A stretch of DNA of 64,000 nucleotides from Polytrichum commune. Its lineage: Eukaryota; Streptophyta; Polytrichopsida; Polytrichales; Polytrichaceae. Within the stretch, counting starts at the first letter, position 1. Each line of letters begins with the position of its first letter. The notes beneath the pieces were generated by a model. It saw only the letters and a list, made by a program, of their open reading frames with translations, was not told where the DNA came from and made no database searches. The stretch is from contig OX485806.1 in NCBI GenBank assembly GCA_950295325.1, positions 10,728,001-10,792,000 on the forward strand. The letters run 5' to 3'. Positions 17,706 to 49,500 of the stretch are shown piece by piece. The position numbers were made by a program, and so were the translations under genes.

Positions 17706-18892
17706 CATATGTAACTAGCGGTTAGTTCTCCCGTTCATTGGTTTGAAGCTTCGTGGATTTCTTACAGTGGGAAGAGATTCAACGGTCAACTTGTTGGTGA
17801 GAGGGAATTATTTTGTAGGAGTGTGTATTTGTCATCTATCCATCCAGCATAAAGTCATAAAAGAGTGTGAAGTCCACATGTCACTTTATATTAGTTGATT
17901 TGACACTGGAATCAACCTCAAAGACCATGAGCTAGTTTAGTCCAAGTCATGAGAGATGAATCAACCACAAGTTTATAGTGTCAAACTTTTATGTTAGATG
18001 GATGAGAGATATGCTCCTTATGCAACAATTCCTTGTTGCTCAATCGATCTACAAGGCTTAAAATGTGGTAAGAGTGAGGGGACCAACTCTTACAAGCCTA
18101 GAAGAAAATAAAATATATAGATAGATAGATAGATACCTAGGTGAATATTAACTAGTGAATTGTGAATCTCATCAAATATAACACAATGCCTTTCGCTACT
18201 CCGATGTAAAAGGTATGTGGTAATGCCCCTATGCATTTACTCTTCTTGATTGGGCACCTAATTGAGCAGTTTGTGGCAAGGTCTTTAGTTAACAATTGAC
18301 AACAAAAAGACATGTGTTACAATGAGATTGGACTATGTGTTCACAATATATGAACCATTATGCATTCAGTTGGAAACACGATTAGGCATAATAACATTGA
18401 GTCTAGTGGGTGTAATCCCTTTCTCAGGGGGGGGGGGGTGGGGGAGGGCCTAACCCATGCTAATGTGTTGGCAATGGTCTATTGAGGATGATTCCTAGGC
18501 CTTCAACTCGCATGTTGGTGGTGACATACAACACATGTGCATGTGCCCCCCCCCCCCAAGTGTGGGCTTGGAAAAATAAACCTTGCAATGCAAAAATAGG
18601 CCCGGAAAATCCTATCTCTCGGTTCAATGTGATAGAGTAAACAATACTCATTTGTTAATTTGTAAGAGCACTCCAACATAAAAGGGGCATTGTTCCTTTT
18701 TGACTCCACAATGGGAGAGCCTAACATTGAATCATGTTATGGGAGGTTATGAAAGAGATTCTTCAGTTTTACCTCTTATAACCTCCACATCTCAAGTCCG
18801 TCTCTACATCTTGAAATGAGAATTGTCATGATTCGTCGCAATTGCTGAGCAAATAAGAAGTTAGAACATTCCCAATTCACTAAAATAGGTAT
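17706..18892. other. Intergenic, with opposed G and C homopolymers
   Basis: A run of about 12 G at 18428-18440 faces a run of about 13 C at 18547-18558, some 110 bases apart. An ATAG microsatellite lies at about 18115-18136. Around 18240-18365 there is a degraded copy of dispersed repeat K. No gene was seen. Confidence 0.4.
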
Positions 18893-22104: not shown

Positions 22105-23824
22105 TTGTGTAGCAACAAGTTTTGAGTGTAACTCAACACCGAGTTTCAAAACATTGTAGCTTCCGGTAGTAATTCTAGTCAAGTCTCAACTTATCCAACT
22201 AAGTCTCAATCAAGATAGAAGCTTTCCTTCATTTAAGTTATCCACATGTCAAGCATCTAGTGTCCATGGAGGTTTTTGGGCATGCATAATCAATTGAGAC
22301 CCTACTGGTGTTTCCAAGGCCAATCAGTCATGTGTTGTAATCTTCCGGTTTTCCTTCGTTAATTTGAGATATATTCCATGTAGTCATCTAAAAGGATAAG
22401 TTTTTTTCACGAAAGTCTTGAACTTCAAAAGTTCATTTCTCAAACTCAACCAATTCATCAGTAACTACAAGTTGGTTCATCCTGTTCATTGCCCGCAAGC
22501 ATGGGAGGGGCGTGTTTTTTCTTTTTTCGTGGCCCATACCCTCTCCCAGTTGCAAACAAAAAGCACCGCCTCTCCATGTTAATCAGATGATTGTTTTTCT
22601 TTACCCATCATGTCCACGCACACATGGATAAGAGGCGGTGAACATACATTAATTAATTATGCCAATTTGGGGCCATTGATGTTAATTACAGGATCAAATA
22701 TGATAAACAAGAAGAATTATGAGCTATGAGTAGTTCCCAACATTTTCACATGAGAATTCCATGCCTTTCACGAGTATTTGACCGGTATTTATGTTTGGTA
22801 CATTATTATGCGAAGGTTTATACCGGATTGTCTATTGTACAATGTTAGTAATGTAAATGCCAACATAAGTAAGTGCATAATGTATACTATTCTAAATATT
22901 GGCATTTACTATAAAGGGGGGGGGGAGGACAAGGAGTGATGTAAAGAGAGGGTGACAACTTAACTCCGAATTGCCCCCGGGACACCTTGAGGGGGTCACC
23001 TTTGGGTGGGAATGTACTTTAGAGCATCACCTTATGTCATCACCCCCCCCCCCCCTCCCAACCCAACATGCAAATTCTTGAAATATGTTTCAAGAAATGG
23101 ATAGGTGTAAGTCCTAATAGATTTTGCTTTGATTTGGGTTTGGTTCAAAGGAGAACGGTGTTTTGAAGTGCAGTTAATGTTCATAAAATATGACTAATAC
23201 TTGTAGGAGGAGGAGGAGGAGGCAAGTTTTCTTGTTCATTGTAAGTATCAACTATCTTTACCGTTTTGGGACACCACCCTAATTTAAACATGCTTCAAAG
23301 ATGACCTTCAAGGTCAATACAACAGAAACCCATCCTCTAGTCAATGAACTTTGACCCCAACTTTGAGAATTCAAGATTTCACATGATGTGTTTAAAAATT
23401 GTATATAAACATTCATACTTATGTAGGAGTATAATCCAACCCATCATCCAAAACCTAGAAAATAAAGGTTTCCATTAGTTGTCCCATCTTGGACATTTCA
23501 ATTTTGTGAATATAAAGATTTGAAGAAAGTATTGAAAATGGGGGATTTTTCTACCCACACCTCATTGTGGAGTTTGTTTCCACAAACAATCCTACCTCTT
23601 TAATATGACATGTTTGGTAACGAGAAAACCATTGTATTATCGAGGTGTCCCAAATTTGATACTATGACAAATTGGACCTCTTTGTCATAATAACAAGGTA
23701 CTTCATGAAAACACACATTATATATATGGCCACATATATAAAATATATAACCTTTCAAATACCTTTACAAAAATGTAAATTACTCTCATGAATCTACGTG
23801 GATTTGAAGAAGGGATCAATAGTC
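22105..23824. other. AT-rich intergenic DNA, no gene seen
   Basis: A G run at about 22917-22926 and a C run at about 23042-23054 face each other across roughly 115 bases, with GGAGTGATGTAA and TTATGTCATCACC near them as a partial inverted repeat. A GGA microsatellite lies near 23207-23221. No ORF of interest. Confidence 0.35.
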
Positions 23825-24712
23825 CGTTGATGTTGCCACTTCACATTAAAATCACCGAAGTACAATTTGTACATTGCCCATTATTGTCACACCTTTGTCA
23901 AAACAACTCAAGTTTGAGAAAAACTACCACCAAATGATGAGTTGTTTCTATAGCTATCCAACAATAAATCAATCAGATTGATTAGATCAAAATCTCGGGG
24001 GGGGGGGGGGTAGTCATTGGTTGGAGTAGCAATATACGTGCGAACAAATGATAGGGTATTTTAAAAACATGAGGGCTAAAAATTATAAATGGACTTAAGA
24101 GTAATATAGGGTATCAAAAATGGCACTAGACATCTTTAAAGTACTATAGGGTATGGAATAATAGGTAATTTGGAATTATAAGTAATGCAAGCCATTTTTC
24201 TATTAACCCAAAGTAGAAATTTACATAATGATAGCATGTGAAAAAAAGAAGAGAATTGAAAGTAATACCCCCCTATAAAATAGTGGTTGTTCGCACCTAT
24301 ATCCTTAATTTTTTAACACACTGCCCCCCCCCCCCCCCGAGATCAAAATTGACCTCGCAATGTGCAAAAAACACATTGTTGTCTTGAAATTAACTTCTAA
24401 AACTCAACCAACCTTCAAACAATCACAACTCTGCCAATACAACTCAAAATTGAGCAAACTACCACCACAAGAAGCGCAACTTCAATAGCTTTTCAACAGT
24501 ATGCATTTCAAAATGATCAGATCAAAATTGATCTCACATTGTGCAAAAGAATAACATTGTCTTACAATCAACATCTAAATCTCAACCAACCTCTAAACGG
24601 TCATAACTTTGCCAATACAACTCAAAATTGACCTAAACTACCACCAAATGAAGCACAATGCCAATAGATTTTCAACAATATGCAAATCAAACCAATTTAT
24701 TAAATATAGAGT
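23825..24712. repeat. Tandem repeat, ~180-bp unit, three copies, interrupted by an insertion
   Basis: Each unit carries CACAACTCTGCCAATACAAC-like, AAACTACCACCA and ATCAGATCAAAATTGA-like blocks. The junction motif recurs at about 24341 and 24520, a 179-base spacing. The first unit (up to 23992) is separated from the second (from 24343) by the element at 23993-24342. If that insertion is removed, the three units are contiguous. Confidence 0.7.
23993..24342. mobile_element. MITE-like element with G-run/C-run termini and 6-bp TCAAAA duplication
   Basis: The element begins TCTC followed by a run of about 14 G and ends with a run of about 15 C followed by GAGA, so the termini are inverted repeats made largely of a homopolymer. 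About 21 bases inside each end, ATATACGTGCGAACAA and its mirrored TTGTTCGCACCTATAT also pair. TCAAAA flanks both sides (23987-23992 and 24343-24348). The site lies in a tandem repeat unit, and the sister unit near 24515-24530 shows the unoccupied sequence AGATCAAAATTGA. No coding content in its 350 bp. Confidence 0.8.
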
Positions 24713-46500: not shown

Positions 46501-49500
46501 CCCCAGGCTTGTCGTAGTCGTTCCGCAGGGGACCCGTCAAAGGGACCATGTAACCATTATAAGCCCAGTATGAAGTTCAAGATGTCAAGTTGAAAGCTCA
46601 ACTGTAAAGTGGACTTTCAATAAATTAAAGCGTGAGTGAAAAGGCCTTCCGGTAATGGACGGGGAGAACCCACCGCTAGTTACAGATGAACCAGTTGAGT
46701 TTGAGATATTACTAACCGGTTGAAGTTCACTACTTCAGAGGAAAATTACCGATCATTTTAGAGGAATGTATGGAATACACCTCGAATTACTAAAGAAACA
46801 AAACCGAAAGATCACAACATGTAACCGGTTGGACTTGAAAACACTAGGATCTCGACCGATTATGCCCAAAAATCTCTCCGGACACTGCCTTCCGCTTATG
46901 AAAGGCTCCTTCAGTCAAGCTCTCAACCTCTTTAGTGTACAGGTGATAGTGGGCCTAATAAGAAACAGGAGATGAATGGTTACCTTTCATGACTTGTGGG
47001 CCACGGACCCAAACTTCTCCAGTAGCCATGGGCGGCAGGGCGTTTTCGGATTCAATGTGGGTGATGCGCACTTCGATACCAGGCACAAGTGGCCCCACGG
47101 AGCCCCATTGCCGTCTCTCATTGGCAACTACACTGAAAGAGATCAGAGGCGCCTCTGTCATTCCATAGCCCTGCTCAAATGAGAGATCATACATGTCAAG
47201 CCCAGAAAACCACCAATTAGGTGTACAGTTCCTCACGATTTATGCAAAAATTAGTCAAGGAGCTTGTGATTAGGGTGGTGGTGGTGGTGGAAGATTTGGT
47301 GTCTGATTGATTAGGTGCAGTAGTGACAACACTAAATGAGATCACCAGAGGTGCCTCTGCCATTCCATAGCCCTGCTCACATGAAGGATCATACATGTCA
47401 AGCTCAGAAGACCCCCAACTAGGTGTACAAAAAAATTCATGATTTGGGCAAATCAATTTCCATCCTTTAACTATGTATGCAAAAAATAGTCAAAGAGCTT
47501 GTGATTAGGGTGGTGGTGGTAGATTTGGTGTCTGATTGATTAGGTGCAGTAGTGACAGCACTAAACAGATTACCAGAGGTGCCTCTCTGCCATTCTATAG
47601 CCCTGCTCACATGAAGGGTGGTGATGATCACAAGCTCAGCAGCTGACGTACTGGGTGTAAAATTGCTCATAATTCGAACAAATTGATCTTGAGCCTTTAA
47701 TTAAGCAGACACAAAGTAGTCAAGGATCTTGTGATTAGGGTGGTGGTAGATTTGGTGTCTGATTGGTGTGGTGCAATAGTCACAACACTAAACGAGATCA
47801 ACAGAGGTGCCCCTGTCTTTCCACAGCCCTGCTCACATGAAGGATGATGATGATGAAGATGATGATGATCGCAAGCTTATGAGCAGCTGACGAACTGGGT
47901 GTACAATCTCTCATGATTTGAACAAATTAATTTGAAGCCTTTGACTAAGTATGCATAAATTAGTCGAGGAGCTTGTGGTTAGGGTGATGGTGGATTTGGT
48001 GTCTGTTTGTTTTGGGGCAATAGTGAAGTGGAAAGGATGAGATTTGGTACCTGGCGCATGATGGCATGCGGGAACATCAATGCGATGGCCTTCATTGTAT
48101 CTTCACGCAAGGATGCCGCTCCTGTGAATCAATATCCATAAAATTATCAACAAGGCTATGGTACAATTCCATTAATACCATTTGTGTCTGAACTAGAAAA
48201 TGTTTATACATTGAAGCGTCGATGTTACTAGACCTGATTAGAAGCAATTTTTCTCAACCAGGGGTCATCATCATCCAGAAACCTTATTCTCATTTCTAGG
48301 AAAATCCACAAAACTTCTCAAAATGTATAGTCTTAACCATACTTAAAAAACTCCCATTGAGTAACCTAAGCTTGTTTTATCTGCTTCGAACCAGGTTATC
48401 TAAAGATGGTGACCAATGCGGGCGGGTGCTCCAGATAGTCGCAGACACCCCGAGAATTGCACAAAATTTCACCACAACTGCACTTCATGCATTCTGGAGC
48501 CACGGAAATTGCACAGAATTGCGTCTTTTGCATGCTGGAGCCCCGGCAATTGCAAGGAATTGCAACAGAGTTGCCATTCATGCACTCTGGAGTCCCAGAA
48601 TTTGCACAGAATTGCATCAGAGTCGTAATTCATGCATGCTGGAACCCCAGCGATTCGACATAAGTGCATTGAGTTGCAATCCACGCATGCCGGGAATTGC
48701 ACAGAGTTTTTGCTTCAGGAAGTGCATAGAGTAGCATCAAAATTGCAGCAATTCAATAAACATGCTGGAGGTGCTGGTGTTTATTGCTAATTACCTGTGG
48801 CGATGATTTTGAGTGACGACAGGTCGTACTTAGCCACAACATCTCCGCTCTTCACAAGCTGCACGAGGATAGGAGGCACCAGAGTGGCGACACTAATCTT
48901 ATACTTCTCCACATACTGCAACATGGATGGCAACGAGTACCGCTCCATGGTGACGACACAAGCACCCCTCTCCAGGGTAGCTAGCATGACGATCCCCAAC
49001 CCATACACGTGATACATGGGGATGATGGCCAGGCACACGTCCATGTCGCTCGTCGAAGCTCCCGGTTCCAATGCGTTGTAGGCAGCGATGGCCGACATGA
49101 AGTTGCGGTGACACAGCTCCACCGCTTTGCTCACCCCCGTGGTGCCCGACGAGAACAGCAATGTGCATGTGTCGTCGGGGTGGGATGTGAATTTCTCATC
49201 TGCTGCAGGTGAAGATTGCTCAACACCTTCTTCTTCTCCTTCTTGCTCTTCTTCGGTGACGACGGAGTCGTCAGATTCTTCGGGGTGGCACTCAATCTCC
49301 GACTTAGGTTGCTCCGGCTGATCGACCTCATTGTTAGCATCTGCAGGTTGAACATCGACCTCCGTGGAATGATCCTCGCCTGGTTGGCTATGTTCTGTAG
49401 GTTGATCTTCTTTGAAAATGATGTCGGAGAGAAGGATTGTCGAGGATGTCTGGAAGTCCTTGCACTTGGCTTCGGTGCCTGAAGGGTTACTCACCAAGGG

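Follow-up and report, generated by a model that had tools for sequence, protein, structure and literature searches.

A high-copy miniature transposon with G/C-homopolymer termini in Polytrichum commune and a coding relative that shares both of its ends

Plant miniature inverted-repeat elements (MITEs) such as Tourist and Stowaway are short, AT-rich, and non-coding, carry terminal inverted repeats (TIRs), and are marked by recent bursts. The MITEs of the hAT superfamily are likewise short, non-coding, and high in copy number; hAT elements create a target-site duplication of 8 bp and usually start with CAGGG or TAGGG. The P superfamily also makes 8-bp target duplications, and PMC7776569 describes for it terminal plus inner inverted repeats, a transposase with the residues D, D, D(2)H, and E, internally deleted non-autonomous copies in zebrafish, and THAP domains restricted to animals. 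The spacings D1-D2, D2-DxxH, and DxxH-E are given as 73, 36, and 192 for the Drosophila P element and as 70, 40, and 199 for human THAP9 in PMC8230255.

The window, the whole 64-kb stretch of DNA that was analysed, holds a genuine mobile insertion whose TIRs are built on homopolymers (Table 1). The terminal runs and the inner inverted match reported by the first-pass annotation are both present, the former as 14 G after CTC and 15 C before GAG, on either side of a 313-bp AT-rich interior. The same annotation had described a 350-bp insertion with TCTC(G)n/(C)nGAGA ends and a 6-bp TCAAAA duplication: the insertion stands, its outer bounds move inward to CTC and GAG, and the duplication is actually 8 bp long, the shorter reading having arisen because the element boundary had been placed one base too far out. 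No open reading frame of at least 100 aa lies inside the element, and the DNA folding of the copy (z = -4.1) is what its inverted repeats lead one to expect.

Table 1. Coordinates of the element and its surroundings in the window
Feature	Position	Strand	Remark
Non-autonomous element (MITE), 348 bp	23994..24341	+	Ends defined from the 8-bp duplications around 70 copies
Left target-site duplication ATCAAAAT	23986..23993	+	
Right target-site duplication ATCAAAAT	24342..24349	+	
Left terminus CTC(G)14	23994..24010	+	
Right terminus (C)15GAG	24324..24341	+	
Inner inverted repeat, left copy ATATACGTGCGAACAA	24032..24047	+	End 37 bp inward of the G run
Inner inverted repeat, right copy, minus-strand ATATAGGTGCGAACAA	24287..24302	-	End likewise 37 bp inward of its run
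Tandem repeat of ~179 bp; second unit is the uninterrupted (empty) site	24340..24691	.	

The host genome (407.8 Mb, 64 contigs) contains 1057 matches to the left-end pattern CTCG N{1,30} TAGTCATTGGTTGGAG, 549 forward and 508 reverse, against 0 for the reversed control, and a DNA similarity search yielded 1574 candidates, of which 40 places were scored. Together with the first 30 places of the pattern list, these give 70 copies, which are flanked by an 8-bp duplication without any mismatch in 63 cases, with one in five, and with two in L029 and in L095, whose placement is loose; the boundary was shifted for four copies with interrupted runs or a TGAG ending. In the scored set, CTC adjoins the G run in 37 of the 40 copies (of the other three, two have an interrupted run with CTC beyond it, and one has CTT) and GAG adjoins the C run in 36. 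The 69 aligned interiors differ from their consensus by substitutions at 0-4.5% of positions, and two of them do not differ at all; this closeness indicates that the amplification was recent. The many copies with common ends and target duplications that the first-pass annotation had anticipated in the genome are thus found, and the element is a recently amplified non-autonomous cut-and-paste transposon of about a thousand copies. It shares with Tourist and Stowaway the features listed above, and differs from them in the length of its duplication and in the homopolymer within its TIR. One copy, L072, harbours a nested, unrelated 560-bp element (L072:1730-2289) with the ends CACGGGTAGGTCAC / GTGACCTACCCGTG and an 8-bp duplication of its own, AATTTACA; this MITE copy was included in the duplication count and excluded from the interior alignment.

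Relatives with divergent arms were sought through an ungapped inner-repeat pattern followed by letters unlike both MITE arms, which gave four places against one for the control. Two of these are MITE variants; the remaining pair, L102 and L103, consists of copies of a longer element, which end in CTC followed by seven G and lie in different flanks. Behind L102, the region L106 holds a 932-aa open frame plus 149 in-frame residues past one TAG, a stop that interrupts the coding frame of this sister copy; the 932 residues are the C-terminal frame and are 98% identical to the L103 element. Compared with the genome, this protein gave 1757 candidates, of which 49 places were scored, many in frames of ~1500 aa: the L103 copy matches at C3:22479784-22482579 (98% identity, frame of 1493 aa), and C3:22756017 at 79% identity to the L106 protein (1549-aa frame). 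At the top four protein loci, a TIR match at CTC follows 0.7-2.0 kb past the end of the protein match. Three further loci (C5:50060035, C5:50081753, and C4:41298906) have near-equal scores, 1518-aa frames, and 71% identity to the L106 protein, which suggests another recently mobile subfamily.

The second end of the L102 copy, sought genome-wide via its flank, gave 0 exact matches. For L103, the motif CCCCGAG + GTTTCTTT, predicted from its flank, occurs with at most one mismatch 50 times in the genome against 60 for the reversed control, that is, at chance level; one of these matches, C3:22477303-22477317, lies ~2.5 kb before the protein match in the correct orientation. There the far end reads AAAGAAAC CCC GGGGGG TT..., then GATATAGGTGAGAACAAACGTAGGGTG, and from these letters follows a coding element of 6351 bp (C3:22477311-22483661) with the 1493-aa frame and a perfect 8-bp duplication, GTTTCTTT, on both sides. 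This far end is convincing solely by its place, orientation, and letters, and not by the pattern match itself. It starts with CCC, not CTC, and the two G tracts of the element are G7 and G6. The end at C3:22477303-22477317 matches the MITE left arm at 74% over 65 bp (E 1e-8); the opposite end, as read in L102, matches the right arm at 66% over 220 bp (E 6e-22), so that both MITE ends are shared with a coding element. As the arms are 26-34% diverged, the 6351-bp element is not the direct parent; on the homology of its ends, it is a plausible autonomous relative, and we infer that its protein is a transposase. In the 64-kb window, tblastn found no transposase remains, and in L080 it found one weak transposase-like stretch.

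We regard it as very probable that the window segment represents one copy of an abundant MITE, which would have moved by cut-and-paste and made its 8-bp target duplication on insertion, that the MITE derives by internal deletion from a ~6-kb transposon family encoding a ~1500-aa, DDE-type, putatively P-like transposase, and that its long homopolymer is a slippage-lengthened by-product. Of this reading, the data establish the 8-bp duplications, the number of copies, and that both ends are homologous to those of the 6351-bp coding element, which has a perfect 8-bp duplication of its own. The transposase of this element or of a close relative would, in addition, recognise the CTC-G tract and the conserved inner repeat ATATASGTGCGAACAA and act in trans on the MITE. 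A short G tract (6-8) would have stood in the ancestral TIR and, once past ~9 bases, may become slippage-prone and drift quickly to 10-20, independently from end to end and from copy to copy, as G tracts elsewhere in the genome would do.

A P-like enzyme is our best guess for the ~1500-aa protein, with the case for and against it evenly poised, because of the 8-bp duplication, common to the MITE copies and the 6351-bp element, the layout of terminal plus inner repeats, and the DDE-like residues and their spacings. Picked by eye in the 932-aa frame, the candidate residues are D142 (after a hydrophobic strand), D261 (within HASDGD), D308xxH, and E503 (within SCEIFFS), and, for residues so chosen, D1-D2, D2-DxxH, and DxxH-E measure 119, 47, and 195. 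The last value compares with 192 in P and 199 in THAP9, whereas the first departs from their 70-73; internally deleted non-autonomous copies are a further likeness, whereas the ~1500-aa frame, the terminal G tract, and the plant host set the present element apart. A difference also lies in the profiles, in that hmmscan, run on the 932-aa frame, on the 149-aa piece upstream of it, and on three fragments of the core, returned no P-family match, the same Pfam scan giving solely weak matches to unrelated families (best E 0.006, below the cut-off of the family concerned). A PDB search of the 932-aa frame returned only nanobodies (E > 0.5), and the P-family profile PF21787 found no match over the whole genome, where its controls were silent as well. 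With the 932-aa protein as a single query, which reaches close relatives only, viral contigs gave no pattern match, and seven stretches of prokaryote genomes matched the pattern, none of them confirmed. Among the papers listed for P elements, for duplications of 8 bp, and for plants or moss, none presented, in its title or the opening of its abstract, a plant P-like family with such ends, and a search for terminal inverted repeats with poly-G, as MITE or hAT or with a target site duplication, found no paper.

More tentatively, and with somewhat greater doubt, the ~1500-aa proteins could represent an undescribed land-plant superfamily of cut-and-paste transposases or a deeply divergent branch of P in plants; they would have been active recently, and the TIR G tract would serve as a built-in hypervariable microsatellite that dates or barcodes each insertion. 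A thousand-copy plant MITE is, at any rate, tied here to a transposase family that has moved recently, looks intact, and has no match in the curated protein library searched, and the superfamily of this transposase is now directly testable. Moreover, each of the roughly one thousand closely similar insertions carries two G tracts, which were probably short at the start, and together they offer a natural experiment on the onset and the speed of G-homopolymer expansion in a plant genome.

Across near-identical MITE copies, the G run is 6-22 long and bimodal, at 7-8 or at 10 and more. In the first 100 of the 1057 places listed, all on contig 1, the left run measures 6-8 in 24, 9 in two, and 10-19 in 74, and nine of these stretches, as read from the list, contain one non-G letter; the right run, in 29 copies of this set (L072 excluded), measures 8-9 in nine and 10-19 in 20. 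In the same 29 copies, the states of the two runs are independent of each other (2, 6, 7, 14; Fisher p = 1.0), and run length is uncorrelated with divergence at either end. This absence is a counter-point to simple growth with age and may point either to a fast equilibrium or to lengths that are reset by transposition. When 69 rows are pooled, left and right lengths correlate weakly (rho 0.31, p 0.009), and right length correlates negatively with divergence (rho -0.36, p 0.002); both results are given less weight because 40 of the rows had been chosen for their likeness to the window copy, its runs among the criteria, and because the row of L096 was mis-scored; the scored 40 alone have no left-right correlation (rho 0.08, p 0.64). 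Homopolymer assembly error could shift lengths by a base or two and would hardly create two modes.

Long G/C runs are common beyond the MITE. Ninety-nine other loci (L002-L070 and L072-L101; 256,956 unmasked bases) contain 28 G/C runs of at least 10 versus 18 A/T runs, and two G/C runs of 8-9 versus ten of length 7, a gap like that in the MITE ends, and the window (39.6% GC) contains 12 G/C runs of at least 10, two of them the element's own, versus seven A/T runs. Unrelated runs of 10-16 are thus frequent in this genome and similar in length distribution to those of the MITE. In mammals, according to PMC12769509, repeats longer than ~10 nt are kept in a rapid equilibrium between expansion, contraction, and interruption, and the bimodal lengths and the genomic gap would, by analogy, fit the threshold behaviour described there. 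The long run is accordingly read as slippage of a short G tract, given the tracts of 6-7 in the 6351-bp element, the range in the copies, the independence of the ends, and the similarity of unrelated runs.

The bimodality could also mirror two classes of source elements with differing tract length, from which the copies would have inherited their runs with no slippage in each copy. This is unlikely, as the two runs vary independently in the 29 copies and short-run copies are scattered on the tree, where the 10 short-left copies need 10 changes and the 10 short-right copies need nine, although the tree of such young copies is weakly informative. It is very unlikely, in turn, that the run is functional, as a G-rich or quadruplex-prone terminus that is read by the transposase or the replication machinery and whose length is under selection: the predominance of runs of at least 10 among the 100 left ends and the G/C runs of at least 6 at both ends of the tabulated copies would agree with it, but nearly a quarter of these left ends are only 6-8 long, L023 and L034, which are among the least diverged copies, have G7, the 6351-bp relative has short tracts, and unrelated genomic runs have a similar length distribution. 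The recognition signal that the first-pass annotation had suggested for the long run is thus not borne out, the independence of the two ends also arguing against it. The opposed G/C runs that it had likened to the element at 18428/18547 and 22917/23042 do exist (18427-18557 and 22916-23055, ~110-120 bp apart) and lack the element's ends; as candidate sister elements they were rejected, each sequence being present once in the genome.

Derivation from the ~1500-aa transposase family also has to be set against membership of the MITE in the hAT superfamily, with mobilisation by one of the many hAT transposases of the genome, a reading of very low probability. The 8-bp duplication is as in hAT; of the 70 duplications, 43 have a pyrimidine at position 2, 38 an A at position 6, and 31 an A at position 7, which is a weak hAT-like bias; and the hAT dimerisation domain (PF05699) is found at no fewer than 150 scored places out of 1060 candidates, in some cases within frames of 583-1084 aa. 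Yet none of the 30 best of these 150 loci, with ~1.5 kb of flank each, has paired CTC(G)n ends of its own: four have a lone CTCGGGG or CCCCGAG, and the sole full pair, at L045, is a separate MITE insertion. Furthermore, the coding element that shares both MITE ends has no match to PF05699 or any other hAT domain of Pfam in the 932 aa scanned (the C-terminal frame of the L102 copy), and the CTCGGG terminus differs from the usual hAT start. The insertion at L045 (L045:306-652), in the flank of the hAT domain, is a further MITE copy whose left end is CTT in place of CTC.

That the segment is merely part of the local tandem repeat in which it lies has a negligible probability, given that its left end recurs throughout the genome and that the sister repeat unit lacks it. 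Specifically, the flanks, joined without one duplication, align through the junction with the second ~179-bp unit at 78% identity, hence this unit is the empty site, which upholds the position within a tandem repeat and the empty sister unit that had been proposed from the sequence.

Lastly, two observations concern other parts of the window and of the genome. Positions 48787-49497 of the window, on the minus strand, contain a 4-coumarate-CoA-ligase-like exon. The genome carries miR160, a land-plant specific microRNA, at three loci, each over the family cut-off on at least one strand.
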